Below are positions 13,770-54,116 of a stretch of 64,000 nt of DNA, piece by piece. The position numbers and the translations under genes are program-made. The notes below the pieces were generated by a model. That model was not told the DNA's origin, ran no database searches, and saw only the letters and a program-made list of their open reading frames with translations. The stretch's first letter is position 1. The number at the start of each line of letters is the position of its first letter. Source of the DNA: Cyclobacteriaceae bacterium (lineage in GTDB: Bacteria > Bacteroidota > Bacteroidia > Cytophagales > Cyclobacteriaceae); the NCBI GenBank assembly GCA_016786585.1, contig JAEUUI010000030.1:310001-374000 (forward strand). Reading direction: 5' to 3'.

Positions 13770-13774
13770 TTTTG
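13770..13774. repeat. Target-site duplication, left copy
   Basis: TTTTG immediately before the TGTCGC transposon end. The same five bases follow the other end at 54112-54116. A 5-bp duplication is the known signature of Tn7/Tn5053-type DDE transposition. Confidence 0.85.
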
Positions 13775-13875
13775 TGTCGCTTTGATTAGAAAACTGGACT
13801 CAACATCAGGAAACCGGACTACCACAGTAAGATGCTGGACTCAATCGAGTAAAAACCCTTAATACAAACTGGATT
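13775..13875 (+). repeat. Left transposon end with four TnsB-type sites
   Basis: After TGTCGCTTT come AAACTGGACT (13791-13800), AAACCGGACT (13811-13820), TGCTGGACT (13833-13841) and AAACTGGATT (13866-13875). These are direct repeats spaced roughly 20-33 bases, the usual layout of transposase-binding sites at a Tn7-like end. From 13876 to 14079 I see no gene; one opposite-facing AGTCCAG near 14038 may be chance. Confidence 0.82.
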
Positions 13876-14079
13876 TGCCATTTTTTTAAGCGCAACTAGG
13901 TCATCCATTCCGCTAATTTTTTATCAAAATCTTATTGAAAACCGTCAGAATGGGCCAAAGTGGGGCGGGGAGATAGTGTTTAAGATTTTTTCGATGAATG
14001 GTAAAAGCTTTTTGAGGTTGGGATGAAAAATTATTTAGTCCAGCAGCCAAAATGATTTTGGTAGAGAAAAGCTAATGAT

Positions 14080-14565
14080 ATGAGTGACCTGAGAATCCTT
14101 TCAAATTCAAGACGTAATTCACCCAGCTTTCTGGGTGCCATGGGTGACTTCCTTCGTGAAACTTTGGATGATGATAAGCTCATCGAAAAGGTTGCCCCTC
14201 AGTACTTCAAACACTGGGGATCTGATTCAAACCGACATTCCGGAAGATCCGCCCGGATGATCCTGAAAGACTACCAGGATAAGCAACTCATAATCATTAA
14301 GGCGATAGACAACATTGGCGATCTGGCCGAGATGGTATTCTTCTCAACCGCCTTGCCAGATGTCAGTGTTGATCTGATCAATGATTTACGCCAACTGGCA
14401 TCCAATCGCTGGTCGGAAGGAAAACTCAGAACGAAGGCTTCTCGAATGAATAAAATGTGTCCTGGCTTGGTTGAATCGCTCAAAAAAGCCGGGTGGAAAG
14501 ACTCAGCCAAAGCAGGATATCTGGAAATAGACCTAGTTAAGAAGTACAAACGGGATCGAAACTAA
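14080..14565 (+). CDS. Hypothetical protein at left end of transposon
   Basis: 161-residue soluble basic protein, not recognised. No signal peptide, membrane segment or familiar catalytic motif. It contains a Ser/Arg-rich N-terminus, an acidic patch (RETLDDDKLIEKV) and a basic C-terminus ending LVKKYKRDRN, with a repeated 'KAGWKDSAKAGY' feel near the end. It converges on the small Cys-rich gene at 14566, with no gap between the two stops. A role in the element, for example at the end or in regulation, is only a guess from its position. Confidence 0.6.
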   Translation: MSDLRILSNSRRNSPSFLGAMGDFLRETLDDDKLIEKVAPQYFKHWGSDSNRHSGRSARMILKDYQDKQLIIIKAIDNIGDLAEMVFFSTALPDVSVDLINDLRQLASNRWSEGKLRTKASRMNKMCPGLVESLKKAGWKDSAKAGYLEIDLVKKYKRDRN

Positions 14566-14808
14566 TCAAACCGTTTTGACCAAAAATTCATACAGATACT
14601 CTATATCTTCTTCATCTCCCATACACCTCGGAGAAATCAGGCCACCATCAATCGATACAAATCCGCAGAAACAACTGACAAAATCATAATTATGCTTCGA
14701 CTCAATAACATGACCGCATAACTTACAACGGACGCTGTTCTTTAATAGCATTTTTTCCGCATATCCTTCCACCAATTCGTAAGACCCTATGATGATTTTG
14801 GTATTCAT
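14566..14808 (-). CDS. Small Cys-rich (zinc-ribbon-like) protein
   Basis: 80-residue acidic protein with CKLCG (CxxC) near residue 33 and SCFCG (CxC) near residue 50, a four-cysteine set suggesting one bound zinc. Function unknown. It is transcribed away from the XRE gene; its ATG is 31 bp from the palindrome at 14839-14860, so both genes may share that operator. Confidence 0.6.
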   Translation of the reverse strand: MNTKIIIGSYELVEGYAEKMLLKNSVRCKLCGHVIESKHNYDFVSCFCGFVSIDGGLISPRCMGDEEDIEYLYEFLVKTV

Positions 14809-14838
14809 AAAAATGAAAAGATCAGTACGAATTTAACA

Positions 14839-15260: not shown

Positions 15261-15572
15261 TTGAAAGCGATCTGGTACATATTGGCCATCACAATCTTTG
15301 CAATGTCAAGCTATCCTTGCTCTGACAATCAAAACCATGAAGATGGTACAGAACAAACTGTGAGCACTGCTGAGCATCAGCATTCTTCCGATGAATCCGA
15401 TCAATGTACACCATTCTGTGTATGCTCATGCTGCAACACACATGTTAACGAGCCTTCGTTCTTCGGGTTTGTTTCAGCATCCGCAGCATTTTCCGAACAA
15501 CATGCCGGTTACACTCCTGCTTTCATTCCATCGATCAGCCAATCCATCTGGCAACCGCCCAAACTCGGGTAA
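15261..15572 (+). CDS. DUF6660-like secreted Cys/His-rich protein
   Basis: 103-residue product with an N-terminal signal-like helix, a His/Glu-rich stretch (TAEHQHSSDESDQ) and the cluster CTPFCVCSCC, as in small proteins commonly found ahead of CusA-type pumps in Bacteroidota (DUF6660). Probably periplasmic and metal-binding, though the biochemical role is not established. Start is TTG at 15261. First gene of the efflux block that runs to 26513. Confidence 0.68.
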   Translation: MKAIWYILAITIFAMSSYPCSDNQNHEDGTEQTVSTAEHQHSSDESDQCTPFCVCSCCNTHVNEPSFFGFVSASAAFSEQHAGYTPAFIPSISQSIWQPPKLG

Positions 15573-15649
15573 TCTCTTCCTCTTGTATTAGCTGCATCGC
15601 AGCTGATCATTCATTCATTACAATTATTCAATACTAAAATCTTTTGCCT

Positions 15650-15829
15650 ATGCGGCAAAAAAGAGTTCGAAGCGCTGTACAGCAAAGCCGTATTGCGTCC
15701 AAGAAAAAAGGCGTAAGCTCAAAGGTCACCGATAACATTATTTACCGGATCATCATCACATTGATTTCCGGTGCGGGGCTTGTGGGCATTATCCTGTTAG
15801 TATCACACACCATTAAAGCACACTGGTAA
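15650..15829 (+). CDS. Small single-pass membrane protein
   Basis: About 59 residues: a strongly basic N-terminus (RQKRVRSAVQQSRIASKKKG) then one membrane helix (IIITLISGAGLVGIILLVS). It ends one base before the RND pump start, so it is co-translated with it. Function unknown; an accessory subunit of the pump is plausible. ATG at 15650 is preferred over TTG at 15644. Confidence 0.55.
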   Translation: MRQKRVRSAVQQSRIASKKKGVSSKVTDNIIYRIIITLISGAGLVGIILLVSHTIKAHW

Positions 15830-15830
15830 T

Positions 15831-18800
15831 ATGATTGACAAAATCATTTATTTTTCAATAAAGAATAAGCTCATCATTGGGCTATTCGCACTTGGGTTAA
15901 TTGCGTGGGGAAGCTATTCGCTTTCACGCCTGCCCATCGATGCCGTACCTGACATCACGAACAATCAGGTACAAATTATAACCTCTGCCCCTTCGCAATC
16001 GGCACTGGATATTGAGCGGCTCGTAACATTTCCGATCGAGCAAACCATGGCGACCATCCCTGACATTCAGGAGATCCGAAGCTTTTCAAGATTTGGACTT
16101 TCAGTTGTAACGATAGTATTCAAAGACAATGTCGATGTCTATTGGGCCCGGCAACAAGTTAATGAACGGTTAACCGTTGCCGGATCACAAATTCCACCTG
16201 GCGTGGGAACTCCCGAGATGTCACCTATTACTACTGGCTTGGGTGAGATCTTTCAATACATCGTTCGTCCTGAAAAAGGTTTTGAGAAAAAATACGATGC
16301 GATGGAACTCCGCAGCATACAGGACTGGATCGTGCGCAGGCAATTGCTGGGCACAACTGGTGTGGCAGATGTTGCAAGCTTTGGAGGTTATCTCAAGCAG
16401 TACGAGATATCGGTTGATCCGGACAAGCTCAGAAGCTATAACCTTGATCTGGCGCAACTGTTCACCGCACTTGAACGCAATAACCAGAATACCGGTGGCG
16501 CATACATTGACAAGAAACCCAACGCCTACTTTATCCGAAGCGAAGGTCTCATCGGTTCGGCCGATGATATCGGAAAGATCGTAGTTAGTAATACACAAGG
16601 CGGCATTCCAATACTGATCCGCGACATTGCACAGGTACAACTCGGTCATGCTACACGATATGGCGCAATGACTTATAATGCGGAAGGCGAAGTGGTTGGG
16701 GCAATTGTGCTGATGCTGAAAGGCGAAAACTCCAATGCCGTTGTCGGACGAGTGAAAGAGCGTATGGAGCAGATCCGCAAAACACTTCCGGAAGGTGTAA
16801 CAATTGATGTGTTCCTGGACCGCAGTGATCTTGTAGGTCGCGCAATTGGAACGGTTGAGAAGAACCTGATTGAAGGTGCCTTGATTGTAATCTTTGTGCT
16901 GGTTTTGTTTCTCGGAAACTTCCGCGCAGGATTGATTGTCGCTTCGGTTATTCCGCTCGCCATGCTGTTTGCCGTTTCGATGATGCATCTTTTTGGCGTG
17001 TCAGGAAACCTGATGAGTCTTGGAGCGATTGACTTTGGATTGATTGTCGATGGCGCGGTAATTATCGTAGAAGCTACGATGCATCATCTGGGACTTCGTA
17101 AGTCTCCTCTCCGTCTTACGCAAGATGAAATGGACCAGGAAGTTTACGACTCAGCTTCCAAGATAAGAACATCAGCAGCTTTTGGTGAGATCATCATCCT
17201 AATTGTTTATCTGCCAATCCTTGCCTTAGTAGGCATTGAGGGTAAGATGTTCAAGCCTATGGCACAAACTGTAGCGTTTGCCATTCTCGGTGCATTTATT
17301 CTATCACTCACGTATGTGCCAATGATGTCGGCTTTATTCCTGAGCAAGAATACGCAGCACAAACGCAACTTCTCGGATAAAATGATGGATTTCTTCAACC
17401 GCGTTTATCAACCCATTATCAAAGCCGCACTGCGCATGAAGGCTGTGGTAGTGATGATCGCGGTGGGGCTACTTGCGGTGACGATCTTCATCTTCACACA
17501 AATGGGTGGTGAGTTTTTGCCCACACTGGAAGAAGGAGATTTTGCAGTAGAGACCCGTGTACTAACCGGAAGCAGTTTATCCTATACCGTGGAAGCTTCA
17601 ACAAAAGCTGCGGAAGTATTACTGCGTGAATTCCCCGATGAAGTGGAAGAAGTTGTCGGCAAGATTGGGTCCTCAGAAATTCCTACCGATCCGATGCCTA
17701 TAGAGGCTTGTGATTTGATGGTTATTCTCAAGCCGAAAGATCAATGGGTTAAAGCGAGCAACCGCGAAGAACTTGCCGATCAGATGGCCGAAGCGCTTGA
17801 AGTTGTTCCGGGCGTATTATTCGGGTTTCAGCAACCGATCCAGATGCGCTTCAACGAATTGATCAGTGGTGTGCGACAGGATGTAGCCGTGAAAATCTTT
17901 GGAGAAGATCTGTCAACGCTCGCAAGCTTGGCCGACCAGGTTGGCAAAGTTGCCGGCAGCGTGGAAGGCGTTAAAGATTTATATGTCGAACAGGTCGATG
18001 GGCTACCGCAGATCGTAATCAACATCAACCGGGACGAAGTCGCTAAGTATGGACTGGATATTGAAACGGTTAATCAGGCAATCAACACTGCGTTCGCAGG
18101 TCAGTCAGCAGGAATTGTGTTTGAAGGCGAGAAACGGTTCGACCTGGCTGTTCGTCTTGCATCGGTTAACCGTCAAAGCATTGAAGATGTTCGCAATTTG
18201 TTTATAACATCACCAAAAGGGGAACAGATTCCGTTGAAGCAATTAGCGGAAGTAGAATTCAAAATTGGTCCGAACCAGATTCAGCGCGAAGATGCAAAAC
18301 GCAGGATCATTGTAGCCTTCAATTCGCGCGGTCGTGATGTGGCCAGTATTGTAAAAGAGTTGCAACAAAAGATTGAGGCTCAGGTAAAGTTCCCCACAGG
18401 CTACTACCCGACCTATGGCGGACAGTTTGAAAATTTACAGGAAGCAAACGCACGATTGTCTGTGGCATTACCAGTTGCCTTATTGCTAATCTTCCTATTG
18501 TTGTTCTTCACCTTTGGATCGATCAAACAATCGCTTCTAATTTTTACTGCCATTCCAATGGCTGCTATTGGCGGAGTGTTCGCCTTGTTGTTGCGTGGAA
18601 TGCCGTTTAGCATTTCAGCCGGTATTGGATTCATTGCGTTGTTTGGAGTTGCCGTATTGAATGGCATCGTTTTGATCGCTGAGTTCAATCGCTTGCGAAA
18701 AGAGGGATATGAAGATCTCGAAGAAGTTGTCATTCTCGGAACTGCTGTCCGGCTTCGTCCGGTATTGATGACCGCTGCTGTTGCATCACTTGGTTTTTTA

Positions 18801-19532
18801 CCAATGGCCCTAGCCACAAGTGCAGGTGCAGAAGTGCAGAAACCTTTAGCAACAGTTGTGATTGGCGGCCTTGTTAGTTCAACGATCCTGACACTGGTAG
18901 TGCTTCCTTGCCTGTACATCTATTTTGAAAGAATGCATTTTAAACGTAAACCGATTGTAGCCGCAGTCTTACTTGTAATGCTCACCGTTTCCGGTGTATC
19001 AGCGCAGGCTCAAGACAACAACCAGGTAGGCATTTTCAAAACCATAGAACAGCTAAAGACTAATCGTCCGGAGCAAATGATTTCCGTGGATATCAATGAA
19101 CAAAACCCTGTGAACGTTACAACCCGGCAGGACCTGATTATCCGAAGCACAAAAGGAACAGTCAAGATCGCTTTTGGTACAGCACAAGGCTATTCCTTTA
19201 ACGGCTCTGTCTATCGGGCGGCCGGGACCAGGGGGTTTCTCAGGAACTATGGCTATTACCGGGTGCTGGATGATTCATGCATTATAACCTATGCCCGGAA
19301 GAACCGGTCACGAAAAGGCGGTGGTTATGAAAACAAATACTACTACAGCGAAAGCTATACGACCCCGGTTAAGAATGCTTACCGCAAAAACTTTCGGAAC
19401 GATTTTGAGGATTTGCCTGAGTTCTACACAGCTATAAGCAAGATAGCTAAGGGGAATTATCTGGCATTGTTTAGCCCTGTTTCCGGATCGCGGATTCTCT
19501 TCAATAAACTGTATTGTGAAACTGTCAATTAA
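15831..19532 (+). CDS. CusA/CzcA heavy-metal RND efflux pump with extra C-terminal domain
   Basis: Inner-membrane proton-driven pump expelling divalent or monovalent heavy-metal ions through a CusB-type adaptor and a TolC channel. Residues 1 to about 1035 form the full HME-RND architecture with twelve membrane helices, including DFGLIVDGAVIIVEA in TM4 and a Met/Glu-containing porter domain. After TM12 (LPCLYIYFERMHF) there is an additional hydrophobic segment (IVAAVLLVMLTVSGVSAQAQ) and about 180 extra residues rich in Arg and Tyr, which are not TolC-like. Total 1,233 residues against about 1,040 for a plain pump. The next gene, tolC-like, overlaps its end. Confidence 0.93.
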   Translation: MIDKIIYFSIKNKLIIGLFALGLIAWGSYSLSRLPIDAVPDITNNQVQIITSAPSQSALDIERLVTFPIEQTMATIPDIQEIRSFSRFGLSVVTIVFKDNVDVYWARQQVNERLTVAGSQIPPGVGTPEMSPITTGLGEIFQYIVRPEKGFEKKYDAMELRSIQDWIVRRQLLGTTGVADVASFGGYLKQYEISVDPDKLRSYNLDLAQLFTALERNNQNTGGAYIDKKPNAYFIRSEGLIGSADDIGKIVVSNTQGGIPILIRDIAQVQLGHATRYGAMTYNAEGEVVGAIVLMLKGENSNAVVGRVKERMEQIRKTLPEGVTIDVFLDRSDLVGRAIGTVEKNLIEGALIVIFVLVLFLGNFRAGLIVASVIPLAMLFAVSMMHLFGVSGNLMSLGAIDFGLIVDGAVIIVEATMHHLGLRKSPLRLTQDEMDQEVYDSASKIRTSAAFGEIIILIVYLPILALVGIEGKMFKPMAQTVAFAILGAFILSLTYVPMMSALFLSKNTQHKRNFSDKMMDFFNRVYQPIIKAALRMKAVVVMIAVGLLAVTIFIFTQMGGEFLPTLEEGDFAVETRVLTGSSLSYTVEASTKAAEVLLREFPDEVEEVVGKIGSSEIPTDPMPIEACDLMVILKPKDQWVKASNREELADQMAEALEVVPGVLFGFQQPIQMRFNELISGVRQDVAVKIFGEDLSTLASLADQVGKVAGSVEGVKDLYVEQVDGLPQIVININRDEVAKYGLDIETVNQAINTAFAGQSAGIVFEGEKRFDLAVRLASVNRQSIEDVRNLFITSPKGEQIPLKQLAEVEFKIGPNQIQREDAKRRIIVAFNSRGRDVASIVKELQQKIEAQVKFPTGYYPTYGGQFENLQEANARLSVALPVALLLIFLLLFFTFGSIKQSLLIFTAIPMAAIGGVFALLLRGMPFSISAGIGFIALFGVAVLNGIVLIAEFNRLRKEGYEDLEEVVILGTAVRLRPVLMTAAVASLGFLPMALATSAGAEVQKPLATVVIGGLVSSTILTLVVLPCLYIYFERMHFKRKPIVAAVLLVMLTVSGVSAQAQDNNQVGIFKTIEQLKTNRPEQMISVDINEQNPVNVTTRQDLIIRSTKGTVKIAFGTAQGYSFNGSVYRAAGTRGFLRNYGYYRVLDDSCIITYARKNRSRKGGGYENKYYYSESYTTPVKNAYRKNFRNDFEDLPEFYTAISKIAKGNYLALFSPVSGSRILFNKLYCETVN

Positions 19533-19539
19533 ATCGAAT

Positions 19540-20763
19540 ATGAAACAAGCCATTATCATACTCGTCATACTTATGGGTTTCGTGGGCAAGCTTGCCGCGC
19601 AAACTGTATCGCTTAACGAGGCTGTACAAACTGCATTGAAAAATAATTTATCGGTTAAAGCAGCCGGGCAGGAAGTACAGTCACAGCAAAGCCTGAAGGG
19701 AACGGCCTTCGATCTTCCGAAGACAAACGTTTCGTTAATGTATGGTCAATACAATAGTTACGATAAGGACAACAACGTTACCGTAACACAGACCATTCCA
19801 TTTACAGCGTTGGGTAGCCAGGGACGGCTCAACCGCGCCAACATTGCACAAAGTGAATTACAAAAAGCGGTAACCGAAAATGATCTCGTGTACCAGGTCA
19901 AGCAAACGTATCTTGAACTGAACTATGCGAAAGCCAGGCAAAAACTATTGCTTCGACAAGACAGCATCTATGCAGGCTTTGCAAAGTCTTCTGACCTTCG
20001 CTTTAAAACTGGTGAATCAAATCTGCTGGAGAAAGCGACCGCAGAGTCGCAACTTAACGAGGTACGCATCCAGATCCGTAAAAACGAATCAACTATAAAA
20101 ATCCTCAGAACTCAACTGCGGACACTGCTTAACAGCGATAACCTTCCGGATGTTGGGGATGAACTCGCGGCATTTGATGGCACCGCACTGGATACACTTG
20201 TACCTGCTGCCAATCCAACATTGCGCCTTATGAATCAGCAGATCGAAGTTGCTTTAAGTCAGAAGAAACTCGAAGCAGCCAGGTTTGCTCCCGATATTCT
20301 TGTTGGATTCTTTACGCAAACATTGATTGGGATACCGAATACAGAAACAGGAAGCGGTGTATCAGCCAGCGGTGATCGCTTTACCGGCTTCCAGGTTGGT
20401 TTATCTCTCCCACTTTGGTTCGGTCCTTATCGATCGCGGGTACGCGCTGCCGAATACAACAAGCAAGTTGCACAAACCCGCTATGCGTATTATGAAAAGA
20501 CGTTGCAAAATGAACAGGTTCAGGCCGTACAGCAGTATTCCGTTGCCCGGAGCAATCTCGAATATTATCGAACTTCTGCCTTGCCGAATGCTGAGCTTAT
20601 TCTTAAACAAGCAGACGCTTCATTCCGAAGCGGAGAAATCAATTATGCCGAGAATCTGATCGCGCTACGCAGTGCTCTGTCAATACAGGAAAATTATCTT
20701 ACTACGCTCAGGGACTTCAACCAGAGCATTATCTACTACGAATATTTATCAGGAAATAAATGA
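19540..20763 (+). CDS. TolC-family outer membrane efflux protein
   Basis: Outer-membrane channel for the metal pump. The start at ATG 19540 gives a clean signal peptide (MKQAIIILVILMGFVGKLAAQ); an upstream in-frame ATG at 19516 overlaps the pump gene. The mature protein has the two alpha-helical/heptad repeats of the TolC fold, starting SLNEAVQTALKNNLSVKAAG and ending with a long coiled segment before YEYLSGNK. About 407 residues. In many Bacteroidota this domain is fused to CusA; here it is a separate gene. Confidence 0.9.
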   Translation: MKQAIIILVILMGFVGKLAAQTVSLNEAVQTALKNNLSVKAAGQEVQSQQSLKGTAFDLPKTNVSLMYGQYNSYDKDNNVTVTQTIPFTALGSQGRLNRANIAQSELQKAVTENDLVYQVKQTYLELNYAKARQKLLLRQDSIYAGFAKSSDLRFKTGESNLLEKATAESQLNEVRIQIRKNESTIKILRTQLRTLLNSDNLPDVGDELAAFDGTALDTLVPAANPTLRLMNQQIEVALSQKKLEAARFAPDILVGFFTQTLIGIPNTETGSGVSASGDRFTGFQVGLSLPLWFGPYRSRVRAAEYNKQVAQTRYAYYEKTLQNEQVQAVQQYSVARSNLEYYRTSALPNAELILKQADASFRSGEINYAENLIALRSALSIQENYLTTLRDFNQSIIYYEYLSGNK

Positions 20764-20771
20764 TCACTTAT

Positions 20772-22025
20772 ATGAAAATCAATCGATCCTTATATTATCT
20801 ATTCATACTTACGCTTGCTGTTACAATCTGTGCCTGCGGCAACAAGTCGTCTGAAGAAACAGCCGAAGAAGATCATCACGAGGAAGCCAGCAATACCGTT
20901 GAGCTTACACAAGGTCAGTTTGACAATGCAGGTATTACGCTCGGCCAGATCGAACGCAGGCAAATCAGCGGAACTATTAAAGTCAACGGTGTGCTGGATG
21001 TTCCACCGCAGAACCTGGTAAGCATCTCTGCACCGATGGGCGGTTTCTTACGAAGCACCGACTTACTTCAGGGCGCTCGCGTGCGTAAAGGTCAGATCAT
21101 TGCAAAGATTGAGAATCTGGATTTCATTCAATTGCAGCAGGATTTTCTAGATGCGCAAGCGCAGGTTGATCTGGCAAAAGCAGACTATGAACGTCAGCAA
21201 CAGTTAGCCAGCGAGAATGTAAACTCTGCCAAAGTTTTGCAACAGGCAAAGTCTGCATTTACCAGTGCACAGGCAAAGTATAGTGGCTTGACGGAGAAGT
21301 TGAAAGTGTTGAGCATCAATGCAACGGAAGTAACGGCTACTAAAATATCCAGCACGATTAATTTGTATTCACCTATTACCGGTTACGTAACACAAGTGAA
21401 TGCCAACATCGGGAAGTTTGTAAACCCGACCGATGTAATTTTTGAGATTGTCGATACCGAACATTTACATGCGGAACTCATTGTGTTCGAGAAAGATGTT
21501 CCTAAACTTAAGATTGGTCAGAAAGTCCGGTTCACACTGGCGAACGAAACCAAAGACCGCATGGCTACGGTGTACCTGATTGGTCGTGAGATCAGCGCTG
21601 ATCGTACCATTCAGATTCATTGCCACATTGATGTGGAAGACAAAGAATTGTTACCGGGCATGTACCTGAAAGCTTCGGTTGAAACCGGTGGTGCTGAAGT
21701 ACCATCGTTACCCGATGAAGCGATCATTGATTTCCAGGGCGAGAAATATGTCTTCGTTGCAACGGAAGCCAAACATACGGAAAGTGACGAAGGTACCGAG
21801 GAATCAGAAAAGAAAGAAAAGCCTGCCAATGAAGAACATCACGAAACAGCACCAGGCCAACACTTTGAAATGATTCCGGTTAAGATCGGCAACAGTGAAT
21901 TAGGCTACACCGAAGTTACGCTGCCTGAGAATTTTGATCCGAAAGCACAGATCGCTGTGAAGGGAGCGTATGCCTTGTTGTCAAAAATGAAAAACAGTGA
22001 AGAAGAAGGTGTCCATGGCCATTAA
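20772..22025 (+). CDS. CusB/CzcB-type periplasmic adaptor lipoprotein
   Basis: Membrane-fusion protein that connects the RND pump to the TolC channel. The N-terminus has a lipobox-like AVTICACGN after a hydrophobic stretch, then an acidic His-rich linker (EEDHHEEAS), a barrel-sandwich domain (VSISAPMGGFLR...GQIIAKIENLDF), a coiled-coil hairpin (residues about 120-190) and a beta-barrel. A second His/Glu-rich segment (EEHHETAPGQH) lies near residue 355. ATG at 20772 is preferred to 20760. Confidence 0.92.
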   Translation: MKINRSLYYLFILTLAVTICACGNKSSEETAEEDHHEEASNTVELTQGQFDNAGITLGQIERRQISGTIKVNGVLDVPPQNLVSISAPMGGFLRSTDLLQGARVRKGQIIAKIENLDFIQLQQDFLDAQAQVDLAKADYERQQQLASENVNSAKVLQQAKSAFTSAQAKYSGLTEKLKVLSINATEVTATKISSTINLYSPITGYVTQVNANIGKFVNPTDVIFEIVDTEHLHAELIVFEKDVPKLKIGQKVRFTLANETKDRMATVYLIGREISADRTIQIHCHIDVEDKELLPGMYLKASVETGGAEVPSLPDEAIIDFQGEKYVFVATEAKHTESDEGTEESEKKEKPANEEHHETAPGQHFEMIPVKIGNSELGYTEVTLPENFDPKAQIAVKGAYALLSKMKNSEEEGVHGH

Positions 22026-22034
22026 GATGAATAC

Positions 22035-22406: not shown

Positions 22407-22431
22407 ACGAATCATTTTCAAAAACGCGCCT

Positions 22432-36684: not shown

Positions 36685-36705
36685 ATCCCTATTGTCACCA
36701 ATTAA

Positions 36706-39005: not shown

Positions 39006-39011
39006 AGCCTA

Positions 39012-43231: not shown

Positions 43232-43232
43232 A

Positions 43233-43934: not shown

Positions 43935-44097
43935 AAATAAACGTTTAGAGTAAAAAATAGAATCCCCCTGACCAGCTTGGCATAAGCTGGCCGCTATCCG
44001 ATCTCCACGAAAATTTTTGTCTGTTGAAGCAATCAAAATCTTCAAACAGCAATGCGGTATTAAGGTGTGATTATCTGCCCCTGTATCTGGAGCTTGT

Positions 44098-45313: not shown

Positions 45314-45315
45314 CT

Positions 45316-46122
45316 ATGGCCGTTCTTTCTGCCGCGCAGTTGCAGGCTAAAAATTTATTAGACTCAATCGGGCTTGATGAGATCACGAACATGGACATCA
45401 AGCTCTTTGCCTCTGGACTTGGCGCAGTTGTCATCGAAGAAGACATGGGCAAATGCGAAGGTAGGTTTACTCCAGGGGCAAAAACCAGCATCATCAAGAT
45501 CAATTCCTCGATCAAGTCCATGGCTAGGAAACGCTTTGTCATCGCCCATGAGATCGGGCATCTCATCATGCACAAGGGTCAAAAGTTGCCGGACGATAAC
45601 TTTTACAATTTTAACCTGATCGAAGGGATTGAAGAGTTTCTCAAATTTGGTCCGCAAGAAGTTGAGGCAAATGAGTTTGCCGGAGAGTTGTTAATACCTA
45701 CTCACCTTTTCGAAATGGAAGCTCGCGGTAAAAAGTTCGGGCCGCAGCTCATCAAGGATCTTGCGACTCGTTTTCAAACCAGCTTAACGGCAGTAGTTCA
45801 TAAATACGTGAAGTCTGAAATAAGTCCCGTCTGCATCATGCAGGTTACTAACGGAAAATTGAGGTACTGGAAAAAGACTTCTACCATGAAAGTTTGGCTA
45901 GAGCCTGGCATTACCAAGCTGCCACCACCCTCCGATTCGGTTGCAATGGAATACGTTCGCAACCGGTATGGATACATTTATTTCTTAGAGGAAAAAGCTC
46001 AGAAGATAAAACGAACCACGTGGTTTGGACTGATCGGTGATCAGCAGGACACTGACTTCTTTGAATACTGCATACCGACTAAGCAGCACAACTCTGTATT
46101 AAGTGTTGTTTGGGAAGAGTAG
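45316..46122 (+). CDS. ImmA/IrrE-type metallopeptidase
   Basis: 268 residues. The zinc-peptidase motif HExxH reads FVIAHEIGHLIMHKG near residue 80, with a downstream acidic segment EVEANEFAGELLIP (Glu ligand). This is the ImmA/IrrE family, whose members cleave XRE repressors of mobile elements such as ICEBs1. The XRE protein at 14909 in the same transposon is an obvious candidate substrate, although the genes are 30 kb apart. Confidence 0.85.
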   Translation: MAVLSAAQLQAKNLLDSIGLDEITNMDIKLFASGLGAVVIEEDMGKCEGRFTPGAKTSIIKINSSIKSMARKRFVIAHEIGHLIMHKGQKLPDDNFYNFNLIEGIEEFLKFGPQEVEANEFAGELLIPTHLFEMEARGKKFGPQLIKDLATRFQTSLTAVVHKYVKSEISPVCIMQVTNGKLRYWKKTSTMKVWLEPGITKLPPPSDSVAMEYVRNRYGYIYFLEEKAQKIKRTTWFGLIGDQQDTDFFEYCIPTKQHNSVLSVVWEE

Positions 46123-46325: not shown

Positions 46326-48734
46326 ATGACTACAACAGATAATGATATAGAAATCCCCCTGGAGGGCGTTGAAAGCGAGCATTGCGCGCTCATCGTTGAC
46401 AAGGGGCTGCAAAAGGTCCCAGGGATCAGCTCGCACAAAGTAGAGCTCAATAACCGAAGAGCGCTCATTAAAGCTGATAAGCCGGAGACACTGAATGATG
46501 CCGTCAAAGCAATTCGGGACTTAGGTTACGGAGTGACCACCGTTAAGCATTCATTCCCGGTACTTCAGATGACGTGTGCATCCTGCGCGGTGAGTGTTGA
46601 AAGCATTTTAAAATCCCATCCAGGAGTAGTGACTGCTGCCGTAAATTATGCTTCAGCTACTGTCCTGGTTGAGTACTTCCCCAACATCACATCACCAGCA
46701 GATTTGAAGAAAGCAGTCCAGGCGGTTGGATACGACCTCTATATAGAAGACAGCAAATCTGAAAGTCTCGAAGAAATACAAGATAAGAAGTACAGCCAGC
46801 TCAAAAGGAAGACTATTCTATCCATCGTATTAACTATACCAGTAGTGGTCATCGGCATGTTCTTTATGAATATCCCGTATGCCAATGAGATCATGTGGAT
46901 TTTATCCACGCCCGTTATTGTGTGGTTGGGTAAGGACTTCTTTATCAATGCCTGGAAACAGGCAAAGCACCGCTCCGCTAATATGGATACGCTGGTAGCC
47001 CTGGGAACAGGTGTAGCATATTTATTCAGTGTCTTCAATACACTGTTCCCTGAGTTCTGGCATGCTCGCGGGCTTCATGCACATGTTTACTTTGAAGCTG
47101 CTGCGGTGATCATCTCCTTCATCCTGCTGGGAAAACTATTGGAAGAAAAGGCCAAAGGCAGCACATCATCAGCAATCAAGAAGCTTATGGGACTTCAACC
47201 GACTACTGTTACACTGTTAAAAAACAATGAACAAGTAGCCGTGCCGATTGAGCAGGTTGAGAAAGGCAATATCATTGTAGTTAAGCCCGGTGAACGAATA
47301 GCGGTGGATGGTATTGTTACCAGCGGCAGTTCCTATGTGGATGAGAGCATGCTCAGCGGTGAGCCGGTAGCGGTTGAGAAACATGAATCGGCCAGCGTTT
47401 TTGCCGGAACAATTAACCAAAAGGGCAGCTTCCAGTTTCGCGCAGAAAAAGTCGGATCTGAAACGATGCTTGCACACATCATCAAGACTGTCCAGGAAGC
47501 GCAAGGAAGCAAAGCGCCAGTGCAAAAGCTCGTAGACAAGATTGCAGCGATCTTCGTGCCGGTAGTCATCGTCATTGCTATCAGTGCATTCATATTATGG
47601 ATTGTATTGGGTGGCGAAAACGGTTTCACACAAGGTCTGGTTGCACTCGCTACCGTACTTGTGATCGCATGTCCGTGTGCGCTCGGGTTGGCCACTCCTA
47701 CGGCCATCATGGTCGGCATTGGGAAGGCAGCTGAAAATGGGATTTTAATCAAGGACGCTGTCAGCCTGGAACTCGCCAAGAAAGTAAATGCGGTTGTGCT
47801 GGATAAAACCGGCACCATCACAGAAGGTAAACCCAGGGTAACGGGTGAGCACTGGCTGATCACAGATGGGATGAATAAGCAGATCTTAAAAACAATTGAA
47901 GAACAGTCAGAGCATCCGCTGGCCGAGGCAGTTATCAATCACCTGAAATCATCTGCTGAACAAACTGTTCAGATAACAGATTTCACCAGCATTACCGGAA
48001 AAGGAGTTTCAGCAAAGTACCAGGGCAAGCTTTATTATGTAGGCAACCGAAAATTGCTCGTTGAAAAAGGCATCACCATTCCGAAGGATCTTGATGTGCA
48101 GGCAAGCCGCTGGATTACCGAAGCTAACACGGTAATCTGGTTTGCCAACAACTCCGAGGCGATTGCTGGACTTGCGATTGCTGACACCATCAAACCTACA
48201 GCTGTCTCAGCGATTCAAACTCTGCAGCAGAGCGGTATCGAAGTATATATGCTAACCGGTGACAACGAAGGAACTGCAAAAGCCATTGCTCATAAAGCAG
48301 GCATTGCGCACTATAAGGCTGATGTGCTTCCGGAAGACAAGGCAGCTTTCATCAAACAATTGCAGCAGGAAAATAAAGTGGTGGCGATGGTTGGTGACGG
48401 TATCAATGACAGTACCGCGCTCGCGCAAGCTGATGTCAGCATTGCAATGGGCAAAGGCAGCGACATCGCTATGGACGTGGCCAAGATGACCATCATCTCA
48501 TCAGACTTATCAAAAATTCCTGACGCGATACGAATCTCAAGGCAAACCGTTAAGGCGATCCGTCAGAACCTCTTCTGGGCATTGATCTATAACGTCATCG
48601 GGATTCCGATTGCAGCGGGATTGCTTTACCCGATTAACGGCTTTCTCTTGAGCCCGATGATCGCGGGGGCCGCAATGGCGCTCAGCAGCGTGAGCGTAGT
48701 CGGGAACAGTCTGCGACTTAAGCTTCAGAAATAA
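46326..48734 (+). CDS. copA: Copper-exporting P1B ATPase CopA
   Basis: 802-residue inner-membrane Cu(+) exporter. N-terminus has two HMA folds: the first is degenerate (ESEHCALIV, one Cys), the second has MTCASCAVSV (CxxC). Then eight membrane helices with CPCALGLATPTA, phosphorylation site DKTGTITEGK, EQSEHPLAEA (HP motif) and GDGINDSTAL. The last helices contain YNVIGIPIAAG and MALSSVSVVGNSLRL, typical of the Cu subgroup. First gene of the right-hand copper block. Confidence 0.95.
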   Translation: MTTTDNDIEIPLEGVESEHCALIVDKGLQKVPGISSHKVELNNRRALIKADKPETLNDAVKAIRDLGYGVTTVKHSFPVLQMTCASCAVSVESILKSHPGVVTAAVNYASATVLVEYFPNITSPADLKKAVQAVGYDLYIEDSKSESLEEIQDKKYSQLKRKTILSIVLTIPVVVIGMFFMNIPYANEIMWILSTPVIVWLGKDFFINAWKQAKHRSANMDTLVALGTGVAYLFSVFNTLFPEFWHARGLHAHVYFEAAAVIISFILLGKLLEEKAKGSTSSAIKKLMGLQPTTVTLLKNNEQVAVPIEQVEKGNIIVVKPGERIAVDGIVTSGSSYVDESMLSGEPVAVEKHESASVFAGTINQKGSFQFRAEKVGSETMLAHIIKTVQEAQGSKAPVQKLVDKIAAIFVPVVIVIAISAFILWIVLGGENGFTQGLVALATVLVIACPCALGLATPTAIMVGIGKAAENGILIKDAVSLELAKKVNAVVLDKTGTITEGKPRVTGEHWLITDGMNKQILKTIEEQSEHPLAEAVINHLKSSAEQTVQITDFTSITGKGVSAKYQGKLYYVGNRKLLVEKGITIPKDLDVQASRWITEANTVIWFANNSEAIAGLAIADTIKPTAVSAIQTLQQSGIEVYMLTGDNEGTAKAIAHKAGIAHYKADVLPEDKAAFIKQLQQENKVVAMVGDGINDSTALAQADVSIAMGKGSDIAMDVAKMTIISSDLSKIPDAIRISRQTVKAIRQNLFWALIYNVIGIPIAAGLLYPINGFLLSPMIAGAAMALSSVSVVGNSLRLKLQK

Positions 48735-48768
48735 CAAGACAATTAACTCAAATACAAATTATAAATAT

Positions 48769-49206
48769 ATGAACACAACAACCATACAAGTACCGGACAT
48801 GCAAACAGCGCACTGTCAGTCACGCGTTAAAAATGCTGTCGGTAGTCTTTCAGGAGTGACACTGAATTCAATCGAAGCGGGTTCACTTACTGTCAGTTTA
48901 GAGAATCCAGAAGCGTTAAAAGCCGTAACGGATGCCGTGTCAAAAGCAGGCTATACAGTGGGTGGTACGACCTCGGAAGCAAAAAACGCTGACGGATCAT
49001 TTCAATTCAAGACTAATATCAACTGCGGTGGCTGTGTCGCCAAGGTGACACCGGCATTGAACGAAGCCTCCGGAATTGAAAGCTGGCAGGTAGATACTAC
49101 GAACAAAGACAAGATACTTTCAGTGAAGTCAGCCGGCATCACACAGGAACAGGTAATGGATACGGTAAAGAAAGCCGGCTTCCGGATTGAGCCTGTTGAG
49201 CAGTAA
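48769..49206 (+). CDS. Double-HMA copper chaperone (CopZ-like)
   Basis: 145-residue cytoplasmic protein with two HMA folds. The first has a single-cysteine loop (QTAHCQSRV), the second a full NCGGCVAKV (CxxC). Follows copA by 34 bp and probably delivers Cu(I) to it. Downstream (49216-49262) two small inverted repeats without a T-run separate it from the next gene. Confidence 0.82.
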   Translation: MNTTTIQVPDMQTAHCQSRVKNAVGSLSGVTLNSIEAGSLTVSLENPEALKAVTDAVSKAGYTVGGTTSEAKNADGSFQFKTNINCGGCVAKVTPALNEASGIESWQVDTTNKDKILSVKSAGITQEQVMDTVKKAGFRIEPVEQ

Positions 49207-49330
49207 TATTAAAATGAGGTTCCGCATCTGTGATATCAGGGCGGAACTTCGGTTAAATAACCGGTAATGGCGGTCAGGCGTAACCCCTGTCTGGAATTAG
49301 CCGTAAAGAATTCATACCTTTATCATCGCA

Positions 49331-49717
49331 ATGAAGCACAGACAACTGTTTTTACTCGCATTGATTGTTTTCGCAGGGGGCATCTTCGCTCCTGTTGCGG
49401 TCATGGCCTGTGGAAAGAGTGATAAAAAAGCTGTGCACGCGAAATCGTCAGATACGAAGCATTGCAATGAAAAGAAGAACTGCAAGCCTGTCAAGAAGCA
49501 ACAAGGCAAGCAGCAAGCTGGTCACAAATGTCCATCCAATTGCAATCATTCCAACTGCAAGTGCGTTTCAACTTGCGTAACGATTGTACTGCCGGAAGCG
49601 ATTGAGGCACTCAGCACTCCGACTAATTTCAAGGTTGCAAAAGCGGCTCCATACGCCACTCCGGATCACCTGAGCCAGGGATTCCAAACGATATGGCTCA
49701 TCCCTAAAATAAGCTAG
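49331..49717 (+). CDS. Secreted Cys/Lys/His-rich protein
   Basis: 128 residues. Signal peptide to about residue 24, then a Lys/Cys/His-rich core (KHCNEKKNCKPVKK, CPSNCNHSNCKCVSTC), then a hydrophobic C-terminal third. Likely a periplasmic metal sponge. It plays the same positional role as the DUF6660-like protein in the left block but the sequences differ. Confidence 0.65.
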   Translation: MKHRQLFLLALIVFAGGIFAPVAVMACGKSDKKAVHAKSSDTKHCNEKKNCKPVKKQQGKQQAGHKCPSNCNHSNCKCVSTCVTIVLPEAIEALSTPTNFKVAKAAPYATPDHLSQGFQTIWLIPKIS

Positions 49718-49815
49718 CACTATTACGCCCACGGGCGAAGTGTGTCCAGTCCTTAACGACAGCATGCTTTAGTGCTATTTATTTTCAATGTAATTTTTAA
49801 TTCAACTTCTTTTTT

Positions 49816-50646
49816 ATGAAATCAAGATCATATATCATGACAGGATTATTCCTGTTACTCTCCATATCGTTATCGGCCCAGCTGTCGAACACAAAAACAG
49901 AAACAGCAAAAGTGTTTGGAAATTGCGGGATGTGCGAAGACAAAATTGAAACTGCCGGAACAGAAAAAAAGGTGTCCGAAGTATCCTGGAACAAGGACAC
50001 CAAGACCGCAACCATCAGCTATGACTCAAAGCAGACAAGCAAAGACGCAGTGCTTAAGAAAATAGCACTTGCTGGATATGATAACGAAGCTTACCTGGCG
50101 CCTGATGACGTTTATCAAAAGCTTCCTGCCTGTTGCCACTACGCAAGAAATAAAGAAACACCGGCTGAGAATGCTTCCGGACATGACCATAACGCGATGG
50201 CGGTTGCCCAAGATTCCGGACCGCTCAAGCAGGTTACCGATTCTTATTTTGAGCTGAAGGACGCCTTAGTTCAAAGCAGCGGGGAACTGGCCTCTAAAAA
50301 GGCAAAGTCTTTTTATGATGCACTTGCCGCTATCAAAATGGAAAGCCTTAAAGGAGAATCACATGATGCCTGGATGAAGGTTAACGGGCAGCTCAAGGAA
50401 GATGCCGAGCACATCAGCGAAACCAAAGATATCAGCCATCAGCGTGATCACTTTAATTCGCTTTCCAAGTCGATGTACGCATTGCTCAAAGCTTCCCCTG
50501 CGCAAGCAACAATTTACTATCAGCATTGCCCGATGTTCAATGACGGAAAAGGCGGCAACTGGTTGAGCAAGGAAAACGGCATCAAGAATCCGTTCTATGG
50601 ATCACAAATGCTGACCTGCGGAAAGACTGTTGAAACGTTAAAGTAA
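49816..50646 (+). CDS. Secreted HMA plus DUF3347 protein
   Basis: 276 residues: signal peptide to about residue 23, an HMA domain with GNCGMCEDKIE, a CCHYARNKETP linker, and a C-terminal DUF3347 domain (SYFELKDALV...YYQHCPMFNDGKGGNWLSKE...GSQMLTCG). DUF3347 domains occur in CusB-type adaptors and copper-binding periplasmic proteins. The His/Cys/Met set suggests a periplasmic copper chaperone. Confidence 0.85.
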   Translation: MKSRSYIMTGLFLLLSISLSAQLSNTKTETAKVFGNCGMCEDKIETAGTEKKVSEVSWNKDTKTATISYDSKQTSKDAVLKKIALAGYDNEAYLAPDDVYQKLPACCHYARNKETPAENASGHDHNAMAVAQDSGPLKQVTDSYFELKDALVQSSGELASKKAKSFYDALAAIKMESLKGESHDAWMKVNGQLKEDAEHISETKDISHQRDHFNSLSKSMYALLKASPAQATIYYQHCPMFNDGKGGNWLSKENGIKNPFYGSQMLTCGKTVETLK

Positions 50647-50651
50647 GCGGT

Positions 50652-51143
50652 ATGAAACACGAATCACACACTCAGCATTCAAGTCATGGCAACGGATCTA
50701 TGTACCGGAAACTTGCGCTTATGATGGTTTTATCCTTTATCGCGATGTACATCCTGATGTATGCGATGGTCGATAAATTCTCCAATGTTATTGTAAACGT
50801 TAACCAGTTCTACATGGCCGGGTTAATGGCTATGGCAATGCTTGTTATCGAACTGGCGGTCATGTGGAGCATGTACGCAAAACGTAAGCTTAACCTGGTC
50901 CTTTTGGTGTTGGGGATAATTGGACTGACAGCTTTCTACGTATGCATCCGGGAGCAGGCTGCTGTTGGCGATAAGCAATTCCTGAAATCCATGATCCCAC
51001 ATCATGCCGCTGCAATTCTGATGGTGGAAGAAACTCCACTGACTGATCCGGAGATCCGTGAACTGGCCAGCAAGATCATCACCAGTCAGCAAGCGGAGAT
51101 TGAACAAATGAAAGCCAAGCTAAAAGAGTTAGAAAGTAAATAA
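50652..51143 (+). CDS. DUF305 membrane protein
   Basis: 163 residues. Three membrane helices, then the DUF305 motif FLKSMIPHHAAAILMVEE followed by a helix (IITSQQAEIEQMKAKLKEL). DUF305 proteins commonly accompany copper resistance genes and probably bind copper through the HH and Met residues. Starts 6 bp after the DUF3347 gene. Confidence 0.85.
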   Translation: MKHESHTQHSSHGNGSMYRKLALMMVLSFIAMYILMYAMVDKFSNVIVNVNQFYMAGLMAMAMLVIELAVMWSMYAKRKLNLVLLVLGIIGLTAFYVCIREQAAVGDKQFLKSMIPHHAAAILMVEETPLTDPEIRELASKIITSQQAEIEQMKAKLKELESK

Positions 51144-51193
51144 TGTAAATCCCGGAGGCGCGTGAAGTATCCATAGCGTCTCCGGTTAATTCT

Positions 51194-53473
51194 ATGAAAT
51201 TATCACTGATAAAATTTATACTGCCGGTGCTGTTATTCCTGCTGGCGCAAGACGTGTTCGCACAGAAAACTGTGACCTATCACCTGTATGTGCGAGACAC
51301 GATAGTGAACTTCACCGGGAAACAAAAGCATGCCATTGCAGTGAACGGACAGATACCGATGCCAACGCTGACTTTTACCCAAGGCGATACGGCTGTTATC
51401 TATGTACACAATGAATTGAAGGAAAGCACTTCGTTGCATTGGCATGGAGTCTTTTTGCCAAACCAGGAAGACGGGGTTCCCTACCTGACGCAAATGCCGA
51501 TTGAGCCGGGCGAAGTTTATACGTACCGTTTTCCCATCATCCAGCACGGAACTCATTGGTACCACAGCCATAGCGAATTGCAGGAGCAAATTGGCATGTA
51601 CGGATCGATGATCCTTAAAAAACGGGATAACGATCCAATCTTTCGCAAGGGGATCGATGACCTTCCGACCGTGCCGCTGATCTTAAGCGAGTGGACAGAT
51701 TACAAGCCGCATAATGTTGAGCGCATGCTGCATATCGCAACCGACTGGTTTGCGATGCGAAAAGATGCCGTTCAGAGTTATGGTGAGGCGATAAAAGCAG
51801 GACACTTCAAAACCAAACTTGGGAATGAATGGAAGCGCATGCTCGCCATGGACGTAAGTGACGTATACTATGATAAGTTTTTGGTCAATGGTAATGCTGA
51901 CCGGATATTCAGCCCGAAGGAAGGCAATCGGGTGCGCCTAAGGATTTCAAATGCCGGAGCGTCAACCAACTTCTGGCTTCGTTATGCAGGCGGAAAGATT
52001 ACCGTGGTAGCTAACGATGGCAATGATGTCGAACCAGTTGAAGTAGACCGGGTGCTCATCGCAGTGTCGGAAACCTATGATGTGGTCGTTTCGATTCCCG
52101 ACAATAAAATTGCTTATGAATTTATGGCGACTTCTGAAGACCGCATTGGATCTTCATCAGTCTATATAGGTGATGGGGTGCGGCAGCTCATATCCCCGCT
52201 TCCAAGGCTGAAGTACTTCGAAGGCATGAAGATGATGAACGACATGATGAAGATGAATGGCGACCTGGACGACATGGGCATGAATATGAGCCTGAACCAG
52301 ATGGATATGAACGTGGTGATGTACCCGGAGATAACTGGTCCAGCGAATAAAAAGAAAGGCAAAATGGATCATGCAGGCATGGACGGAGATTCTAACAGAG
52401 GCCATGACATGCATGGCGGGCACTCGATGGAAGACCAATACAATTCCAACAAGCTTTCCGATATCGTAACATTGAATTATGCCATGCTCAGGTCTCCCGA
52501 GAATACCAGCCTTCCGGAAGGACCAGTAAGGGAACTGCGCTTTGAGCTCACCGGAAATATGAACCGGTATGTCTGGAGCCTCGATAACCAGGTATTGTCG
52601 GAAGCTGATAAAATCCTGATAAAAAAGGGCGAGAATGTGCGCATCATTATGTTCAACAATTCCATGATGCGCCATCCGATGCACCTTCATGGTCATGACT
52701 TTCGGGTGCTGAACGGACAGGGCGTTAACGCACCGCTAAAGAATATCATTGACATTATGCCCATGGAAACAGACACCCTTGAATTCCATGCAAATGTGTA
52801 CGGTGACTGGTTCTTTCATTGTCACATTCTATACCACATGATGAGCGGCATGGGCAAGGTGTTCACCTATGATAACCAGCCTAAAAATCCGCTGATCAAA
52901 AAATCTTCTTATGCACGAAGGAAACTTTTTTCAGATGACCGGGCATTCCATTTTATGGCAGAGAACGATTTTGCCACAAATGGCAATGACGGGATGTTCA
53001 TGCTTCAGAATACACGTTGGAGCATCGGTACGGAGTGGCGACTGGGCTATAATGACATGCACGGTTATGAAACGGAAACCCACATCGGAAGGTACATTGG
53101 AAGAATGCAATGGTTGATGGTGTTCGCAGGCTTTGATTGGCGCTACCGCAAAGAAGGAATTGATAGCCATGAAGAAAACCTTTTCGGCCAGACCAATTCC
53201 AAGGATGATCGCGCACAGTTTACACTAGGCTTTGCCTACACACTTCCTATGCTGGTTGAATTCCAGACCGAAGTATTCCAGAATGGCAATGTGCGTATTC
53301 AGCTGATGCGGGAAGACATTCCGATCACAAAACGAATCCGTATGGGCTTTATGGTGAACTCGGATGTTGAGTATATGGCGGAGCTGCGGTACATCTTTAA
53401 TCCCTATGTGGCATTGCGAACGCATTACGATAGCGACATGGGCTTTGGAGTGGGCCTGAACATCGGGTACTAG
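51194..53473 (+). CDS. Multicopper oxidase (CopA/CueO type) with C-terminal barrel
   Basis: 759-residue periplasmic or outer-membrane copper oxidase. Signal peptide (LPVLLFLLAQDVFAQ), then three cupredoxin domains with copper-ligand motifs HWHGVFLP, HWYHSHSE, HPMHLHGHDF and FHCHILYHMMSGM. A Met/His-rich insert (MMKMNGDLDDMGMNMS; HAGMDGDSNRGHDMHG) marks copper-resistance oxidases. The last 150 residues form CopB-like beta-strands (EWRLGYNDMHGY). Probably oxidises Cu(I) outside the cytoplasm. Confidence 0.9.
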   Translation: MKLSLIKFILPVLLFLLAQDVFAQKTVTYHLYVRDTIVNFTGKQKHAIAVNGQIPMPTLTFTQGDTAVIYVHNELKESTSLHWHGVFLPNQEDGVPYLTQMPIEPGEVYTYRFPIIQHGTHWYHSHSELQEQIGMYGSMILKKRDNDPIFRKGIDDLPTVPLILSEWTDYKPHNVERMLHIATDWFAMRKDAVQSYGEAIKAGHFKTKLGNEWKRMLAMDVSDVYYDKFLVNGNADRIFSPKEGNRVRLRISNAGASTNFWLRYAGGKITVVANDGNDVEPVEVDRVLIAVSETYDVVVSIPDNKIAYEFMATSEDRIGSSSVYIGDGVRQLISPLPRLKYFEGMKMMNDMMKMNGDLDDMGMNMSLNQMDMNVVMYPEITGPANKKKGKMDHAGMDGDSNRGHDMHGGHSMEDQYNSNKLSDIVTLNYAMLRSPENTSLPEGPVRELRFELTGNMNRYVWSLDNQVLSEADKILIKKGENVRIIMFNNSMMRHPMHLHGHDFRVLNGQGVNAPLKNIIDIMPMETDTLEFHANVYGDWFFHCHILYHMMSGMGKVFTYDNQPKNPLIKKSSYARRKLFSDDRAFHFMAENDFATNGNDGMFMLQNTRWSIGTEWRLGYNDMHGYETETHIGRYIGRMQWLMVFAGFDWRYRKEGIDSHEENLFGQTNSKDDRAQFTLGFAYTLPMLVEFQTEVFQNGNVRIQLMREDIPITKRIRMGFMVNSDVEYMAELRYIFNPYVALRTHYDSDMGFGVGLNIGY

Positions 53474-53503
53474 GCTTGAAGTCATAGAAACCACCTAATA
53501 AAG

Positions 53504-53868
53504 ATTCATTGGAAAATGCCTGACGGACTAAGGCCTAATATGAGGACGAGTTACGTACAGCTTATGAAAATCTTTTGTTTGATAATCTAATGCCTGCCAG
53601 GTGGCATTTAGAATCGTGCACGCATCATCGGGCAGTCATGGGCAATTGGACACACACTTGTTCATTGGTGAATGTTGAAATTTGGGTTTTAATAAAAGAT
53701 AAACAGGAATCATCGGACAGCTTCCCCGTCTGCTGGCAGGGGGTGTAAAATCTTTTGTAGGAAAAGTTTCGATAGGCAATACCGGGACCAATGTTTTCGC
53801 TCGTGGATCCAATGGAGATCCCGGTAGATCTGAAACGTTTGCTTGATCTTTATGTGATGCCCAAATAG
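53504..53868 (+). pseudogene. Decayed DUF3703 gene
   Basis: Full-length but broken homologue of the intact gene at 22035. Fragments in shifting frames read HWKMPDGLRPN, then YEDELRTAYENLLFDNLM-ARWHLE, then RARIIGQSWAIGHTLVHW-stop-MLKFGF, then GIIGQLPRLLAGGVKSFVGK, and finally DPMEIPVDLKRLLDL to the TAG at 53868. At least four frameshifts and an in-frame stop. Shows that the copper block once had its own DUF3703 gene. Confidence 0.82.
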
Positions 53869-53989
53869 CTTAGGTGCTGAAATTTTACAGGGTACAGTAC
53901 TTTAAAAAACTCGCTAAAATCTTTTGGCAAAAAGCTTGTTTCTTGAAATCAAAACGATGTTTTCAGCGACAAAATTTTGGCAATATCCT

Positions 53990-54111
53990 AGTCCAGTTTG
54001 TTATAGTAGAAAATCACCCTAGTCCGGTTTTATAATGGTATAGTCCGGCTCGTTATTGTTGGAATTGGTCAAAAACCGTTATAATAGTCCGGAAAGTTAA
54101 TAAAAGCGACA
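53990..54111 (-). repeat. Right transposon end with four TnsB-type sites
   Basis: AGTCCAGTTT (53990-53999), AGTCCGGTTT (54021-54030), AGTCCGGCT (54042-54050) and AGTCCGGAAAG (54086-54096), then AAAGCGACA ending at 54111. These are the inverted counterparts of the left-end repeats. Between the DUF3703 relic and this end (53869-53989) there is no gene. Confidence 0.82.
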
Positions 54112-54116
54112 TTTTG
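54112..54116. repeat. Target-site duplication, right copy
   Basis: TTTTG directly after the terminal GCGACA, identical to 13770-13774. Confidence 0.85.

Follow-up and report, generated by a model that had tools for sequence, protein, structure and literature searches.

A Tn7-like transposon in which an unrelated protein, HATP1, occupies the place of TniQ is inserted upstream of mraZ in the stretch of DNA analysed here (64,000 nucleotides from a Cyclobacteriaceae bacterium, hereafter the window). The element is real and its core genes have open reading frames; what appears to be new is the recurrent use of the mraZ site by its lineage and the selector candidate, HATP1 being a probable new target selector. 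A first-pass annotation of the same DNA had recognised the element and overlooked both the lack of a detectable TniQ, with an unrelated protein in its place, and mraZ as a recurrent target.

Read directly from the window, the element proper covers positions 13775-54111 (40,337 bp). The TTTTG flanks and the shared TGTCGCTTT at the beginning of both ends are likewise read directly, and the element and boundaries proposed in the first-pass annotation are thereby upheld. Its description of four repeat sites at each end is correct for the right end, with inverted YGGACT sites at 53990, 54021, 54042 and 54086, and slightly generous for the left end, where three sites are exact (13794, 13814 and 13835) and the fourth is only degenerate (CTGGATTT at 13869). 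The 5-bp duplication and the TGT..ACA ends with repeated transposase sites meet one criterion for a Tn7-like element. End pairs with 9-bp identical termini, a 5-bp duplication and three GGACT sites per end occurred in none of 60 simulated first-order Markov sequences of the window's composition, compared with exactly one pair in the window. The ends of related elements were not retrieved with the window's own GGACT motif because the site sequences vary among elements, and generic searches for target duplications yielded only background outside the window. The features are as follows (positions in the window, strand where it applies).

13214-13738, minus strand: mraZ open reading frame (Pfam MraZ), probable true start about 13654; target gene, outside the element
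13770-13774: target duplication on the mraZ side, TTTTG, 5 bp
13775-13880: left (mraZ-proximal) transposon end, TGTCGCTTT followed by three exact and one degenerate YYGGACT sites
14080-14565, plus strand: GNAT-like accessory protein (weak fold match), present in most HATP1-type elements
15261-25528, plus strand: metal block 1 (DUF6660, RND pump, outer-membrane efflux protein, HlyD-type adaptor, DUF3703, P-type ATPase, HMA protein)
27969-28793, minus strand: Mrr-like restriction endonuclease
29566-31918, minus strand: PD-Lambda-5 defence pair (B 29566-30507, A 30491-31918)
32044-32670, plus strand: serine recombinase (invertase-like)
32667-33554, plus strand: PD-T4-7 defence protein
33551-35134, minus strand: Pycsar system (PycTM effector 33551-34138, PycC cyclase 34139-35134)
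35185-36684, minus strand: HEPN protein (Apea-like, weak, under the curated cut-off)
36706-37524, minus strand: HATP2, HATPase protein adjoining the HEPN gene
37807-39584, plus strand: cargo module of HATPase (HATP3), DUF4325 STAS-like protein and PIN protein (weak)
39571-40476, minus strand: HATP1, STAS-like/GHKL protein of 301 residues in the tniQ position, proposed target selector
40486-41379, minus strand: TnsC (TniB, AAA ATPase; PF05621, 7.9e-40)
41345-43231, minus strand: TnsB (DDE transposase; Mu-transpos_C, 3.1e-08)
43233-44045, minus strand: TnsA endonuclease (PF08722, 2.9e-19)
44419-46122, plus strand: divergent module (sigma-like protein 44419-44934, weak; 129-aa protein 44924-45313; CapP-like ImmA/IrrE protease 45316-46122)
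46326-53473, plus strand: metal block 2, copper-type (P-type ATPase, HMA protein, DUF3347, DUF305, multicopper oxidase)
53985-54111: right transposon end, four YGGACT sites, terminating in ..AAAGCGACA
54112-54116: target duplication on the far side, TTTTG, 5 bp
54115-54182: solo end of an older element at the same target, TGTCGTTTCCC with AATGAGAC repeats

Profile searches recovered the two metal blocks and the defence island that had been reported, and the previously proposed Tn7-like identity is supported by the encoded TnsA, TnsB and TniB/TnsC, with boundaries and a 5-bp duplication that hold. The transposition genes lie in the middle of the element on the minus strand, and TnsB aligns over its full length with the TnsB of TniQ-bearing relatives. 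The criterion for a CRISPR-associated transposon is not met, as no cas family was detected at E 0.001 among the open reading frames of the element over about 90 aa; one PADLOC match to Cmr5 (E 0.0074) was taken as chance. Among the cargo genes, a 278-aa protein without an assigned family (27121-27957) contains HGxxDG and LGACYG motifs, seen by eye, that suggest a caspase/CHAT-like fold, and HATP2 together with the weak Apea-like HEPN protein (35185-37524) might be a variant of the HATPase-STAS-PIN module with another RNase.

The gene after tnsC in the window is HATP1 and not tniQ, an order that is observed directly, and the criterion of a TniQ/TnsD protein is not met by the element. We therefore file it as a derived TnsABC lineage working like Tn7 and not as a standard Tn7-like member. 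TniQ is called ubiquitous in the Tn7 branch by Faure et al. (2023, PMC10293859), while Benler et al. (2021, PMC8649781) give tnsD/tniQ in 73-97% of transposons per clade, so that elements without detected tnsD/tniQ existed in those data. A TnsB search of 196 genomes of the same bacterial family gave matches in 17 genomes (genomes are referred to by G numbers; weak or partial matches in G009, G133, G170, G180, G184 and G101, the second match in G055 and that on contig 5 of G000 were left out). Two kinds of operon surrounded the full-length relatives: tnsC was followed by TniQ in ten, one of them a second element in the window's own genome, and by HATP1 in the window, G122, G033 and one of three elements of G104. 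A HATP1 profile run on 390 genomes of the family added G370, G223, G258 and G282, giving a total of eight tnsABC-HATP1 operons found in one bacterial family. It also detected two remnants, one of TnsC-HATP1 at another place in G282 and one of HATP1 in G265. The same profile on 390 genomes drawn from the order matched four genomes at 1e-25, three of them already in the family and one distant (G610); other orders were outside the scope of the HATP1 search. Plasmids contained no HATP1 match at 1e-5, and TnsB and HATP1 scans of a genome-contig collection returned no relative.

A profile built from ten TniQ proteins recovered all 10 TniQ-type loci and gave nothing better than E 0.77 on the HATP1 loci. 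That the element is an ordinary Tn7-like one with a TniQ that escaped detection or works in trans is hardly credible: although PF06527 detects TniQ genes in six of the nine carrier genomes, the window's own included, all of them lie outside the HATP1-type elements, which are themselves clean in the TniQ profile search, and no TniQ was detected with PF06527 in the whole genomes of the three other carriers, G122, G223 and G033 (two listed as 100% and one as 98% complete). In the window's own genome, contig ends of C4 and C6 hold the second Tn7-like element with TniQ, with a contig break inside tnsB, and on contig C5 (401766-406758) two TniQ genes lie near a distant TnsB-like gene, perhaps a dual-TniQ Tn7-like element. 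A Methylobacter plasmid element that lacks TniQ by annotation was rejected as a further case, its DNA having a TniQ-like stretch (1.5e-41).

In trees with a TniQ-bearing Deinococcus element as outgroup, the HATP1-type TnsB (8 sequences) and TnsC (7 sequences, the interrupted tnsC of G282 being omitted) each formed one clade with a bootstrap of 100. Both clades were nested among the TniQ types beside G065, with a support of 80 for TnsB and 87 for TnsC, and this placement among TniQ-bearing relatives meets another criterion for a Tn7-like element. On these trees, the replacement of TniQ by HATP1 occurred once. HATP1 and TnsB distances were strongly correlated (r = 0.94; exact permutation, 3 of 40,320). 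The tnsC gene of G282 (L086/L087) is interrupted by about 1.2 kb, which might mean that the element is inactive or that it has an intron.

All eight tnsABC-HATP1 operons lie at the site upstream of mraZ in the same orientation (G223 was judged from its flanks), whereas the ten TniQ-type operons are all on contigs other than that of mraZ, and none was found at this site (Fisher p = 2.3e-5, relatedness not corrected). The distance to mraZ was not measured for every TniQ-type operon, given that the contigs of G104 and G065 end near the operon and the mraZ contig of G094 is short. As a possible counter-example we considered G065, which is of the TniQ type and sister to the HATP1 clade; its mraZ flank is on a separate contig that stops about 420 bp into an apparent element end, and its TniQ operon is very unlikely to be at mraZ. 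The tree has a single joint change of selector and site, so that their association represents one evolutionary event followed by conservation.

Elements delimited at both ends and abutting the mraZ promoter were observed in the window, G122, G282 and G370, with the duplications CAAAA (the complementary reading of TTTTG), GAAAA, ATTTA and ATTTC, respectively. A fifth complete element, in G223, has the duplication GATTT; this assembly is without mraZ and the contig stops before the box, but 1.4 kb of the left flank align at 88% identity with the DNA upstream of mraZ in G152, and the same site is seen at the contig end. In G258, G033 and G104 the operon has the same orientation and is 10-21 kb from mraZ on its upstream side; only the mraZ-side end was found in G033, and in G104 the mraZ-near end (272 bp) is unclear and the ends of the element remain unresolved. 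The HATP1 remnant of G265 is 1.1 kb from mraZ, and the decayed tnsC-HATP1 remnant of G282, which lies at another place without MraZ boxes, is the one exception. A natural empty site was observed in G152, with one copy of GAAAA and matches to the flanks of three elements. Within the genus, mraZ was assembled in 16 of 17 genomes, and by eye an element end upstream of it was clear in eight, degraded in two and lacking in six. This recurrence at mraZ meets the Tn7-like criterion of insertion at one attachment site, the mechanism being inferred. No publication describing a Tn7-like element at mraZ, or one that uses a GHKL/STAS selector, came up in our searches (most subscription papers were outside their scope), and the mraZ upstream site is a recurrent and apparently undescribed target.

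The shared site and orientation might also be explained by one ancient insertion that diverged in place. This is very improbable in view of the differing 5-bp duplications, an 8-bp offset between G122 and G282, the empty sites within the genus and the insertions beside older element ends seen by eye in the window and G370. Moreover, the hosts of the window and G258 elements have MraZ proteins that are 98.9% identical, yet the TnsB proteins of the two elements are only 40% identical, and the elements therefore move independently of their hosts and return to the same site.

The older insertions also bear on the empty site predicted by the first-pass annotation, a junction with a single TTTTG. 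The mraZ-proximal junction of a near relative, G258, almost agrees with it (CCCACTTTCTTGTCGTTTCCC, one inserted base off), and the G265 junction is four bases shorter; the supposedly empty flank, however, is itself the end of the older element, which is of the same kind, and the window element was therefore inserted beside an older end and not into a virgin site. Solo ends at the mraZ site in the window, G173, G248, G094 and G065 mark repeated insertion and decay; those of G173 and G094 were flagged by a pattern scan and those of G248 and G065 were seen by eye, and no transposase was found in the DNA examined at the solo-end loci (2-40 kb each).

The distance from the element end to the first MraZ box was 36-41 bp in ten of the twelve junctions listed and 49 bp in the other two. 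Five of the twelve are the solo ends, which are of unknown operon type, and the unclear or degraded junctions of G104, G194 and G237 were omitted; among the complete elements the spacing was 40-41 bp in the window, G122 and G370 and 49 bp in G282. The boxes of the window are a triple repeat at 13705-13733, which we take to be MraZ boxes on account of its likeness to them, with one exact match in the 4.19-Mb genome. Near-constant spacing and a triple box with one exact match in the genome are what might be expected if host MraZ on its operator were the landmark and HATP1 bridged MraZ and TnsC without touching DNA, and the fold of HATP1, described below, is of a protein-protein signalling type. 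Direct evidence is lacking, however, and the distances to the promoter and the start codon vary as little as the distance to the boxes, which are thus not singled out. We regard this special case of our preferred explanation as possible but doubtful.

HATP1 of the window had no Pfam or NCBIfam match. Its structure model (pLDDT 86) matches GHKL ATPases; the lowest E-values were obtained with Hsp90 N-domains, with poor superposition, and the best fit with the anti-sigma factor SpoIIAB (TM by target 0.67-0.70, at an E of only 0.002-0.003), which was also found weakly in a PDB profile search (E 0.8-1). When 25 members of the HATP family were scanned, nine scored as HATPase, one as STAS and one as STAS_2, the window's own protein as neither; with such sparse STAS scores, the STAS-like N-terminus of HATP1 is mainly a reading of pattern and secondary structure. 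The nearest sequence relatives are found in HATPase - DUF4325 STAS-like - PIN operons, STAS and PIN genes following the HATPase in all 20 loci of non-transposon relatives. The GGxGL box, an ATP-lid motif, is present in 16 of 17 aligned non-transposon relatives and in none of the eight transposon copies (counted by eye). HATP1 was probably derived from this type of module, which is also carried as cargo at 37807-39584. Such three-gene modules are widespread (the window copy; loci L059-L074 and L076-L079) and look like partner-switch controlled RNases, perhaps serving defence. The mean charge of the transposon copies is +7.8, compared with -2.5 for the other relatives (p = 0.004), with a net charge of 0 for the window copy, and no DNA-binding domain was recognisable in HATP1. 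A C-terminal Ala-Ala is present in eight of ten transposon HATP1 copies and in none of 20 other relatives; it is a possible protease tag and presumably resembles ClpXP tags.

Two other sets of genes mark the lineage as well and are thus rival selectors, namely the GNAT-like gene and the sigma-like/CapP module. HATP1 could be a regulator, setting the activity or timing of transposition, while the sigma-like or the GNAT-like protein recognises the mraZ promoter. Genes for a sigma-like protein, a protein of about 130 aa and a CapP-like protease (match E 4.5e-53) have the same layout divergent to tnsA in six of the eight HATP1-type elements, the first-position protein has a weak sigma-70-like score in two of five scanned (window and G104), and the anti-sigma-type fold of HATP1 makes a HATP1-sigma pair conceivable. 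The GNAT-like gene was likewise detected in six of the eight, usually immediately after HATP1 in elements other than that of the window, as well as in the G265 remnant and as fragments in G033. The TniQ slot of the tnsABC operon, however, is held by HATP1 alone in all eight elements. Only the protease of the divergent module is similar in sequence; the first two proteins of the window have no detectable similarity to their counterparts in the other elements, whereas a common target would suggest some likeness. CapP-type proteases, moreover, are known regulators, and the search of the G033 stretch gave no protease (in G258 the contig breaks off at this point). One TniQ-type element, that of G094, carries the GNAT-like gene as well, and the part of G104 that was searched yielded none. 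We consider this division of roles unlikely.

The explanation that we favour, and hold to be probable, is that HATP1, a degenerate regulator, was co-opted in a single event in place of TniQ and directs insertion to the mraZ operator. HATP1 would have been co-opted from a HATPase-STAS-PIN module with loss of the ATP-lid motif and would have assumed the role of TniQ, recognising the mraZ operator with its three MraZ boxes either directly or by docking on bound host MraZ. At the operator it would recruit TnsC, and TnsAB would then carry out the insertion some 40 bp upstream of the first box, without damage to the promoter of the cell-division cluster. Both the selector role of HATP1 and its way of reading the site are inferred. 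No experiment stands behind this explanation, and HATP1 as target selector is the likeliest reading and not a demonstrated one. The wider claim, that HATP1 represents a new class of Tn7 selector, in which an ATP-lid-degenerate STAS/GHKL protein from a PIN-nuclease module fully replaces TniQ and reads a host transcription factor or its operator, is more tentative, and we would put it somewhat short of an even chance.

To our knowledge, known Tn7-like elements home on the chromosome via TniQ/TnsD, acting either by itself or as the hub through which other selectors work. If the present lineage homes without TniQ, an unrelated protein is able to direct TnsC to a fixed chromosomal position. This would have a bearing on the relay of the target signal and on the building of new programmable insertion systems. 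The mraZ upstream region would be a new safe site ahead of the cell-division genes, and would account for the place at which genes for metal resistance and defence can accumulate in these bacteria. Should HATP1 indeed be a selector of a new class, the regulator of the cell-division genes would serve as the guide for transposition.

With Tn7-like elements that use TniQ/TnsD, the lineage shares TnsA, TnsB and TniB/TnsC in one operon, the 5-bp duplication, ends with multiple sites and a target gene that is spared; it differs in that an unrelated STAS/GHKL protein is present and no TniQ/TnsD was found, and in its target upstream of mraZ in place of glmS, tRNA genes or comM. TnsE is a selector unrelated to TniQ that directs TnsABC without TnsD. 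It aims at replication forks and conjugative plasmids and is found in the same element as TnsD/TniQ, whereas HATP1 is associated with one chromosomal site and has no TniQ beside it. Like SpoIIAB and other partner-switching proteins, HATP1 has a GHKL fold, in its C-terminal part; unlike SpoIIAB it is fused to an N-terminal STAS-like part, has lost the ATP-lid motif and is encoded with a transposase. The HATPase - DUF4325 STAS-like - PIN operons mostly have an intact GGxGL box and continue with STAS and PIN genes, whereas HATP1 follows tnsC. The TnsE pathway of Tn7 is named in Faure et al. (2023, PMC10293859), and the same paper describes in Tn6022 a similar co-option for target choice of a degenerate protein from another system, TnsF, a tyrosine recombinase. 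TnsF works together with TniQ, whereas the lineage described here has lost TniQ and has co-opted a protein that derives from the GHKL/STAS type.
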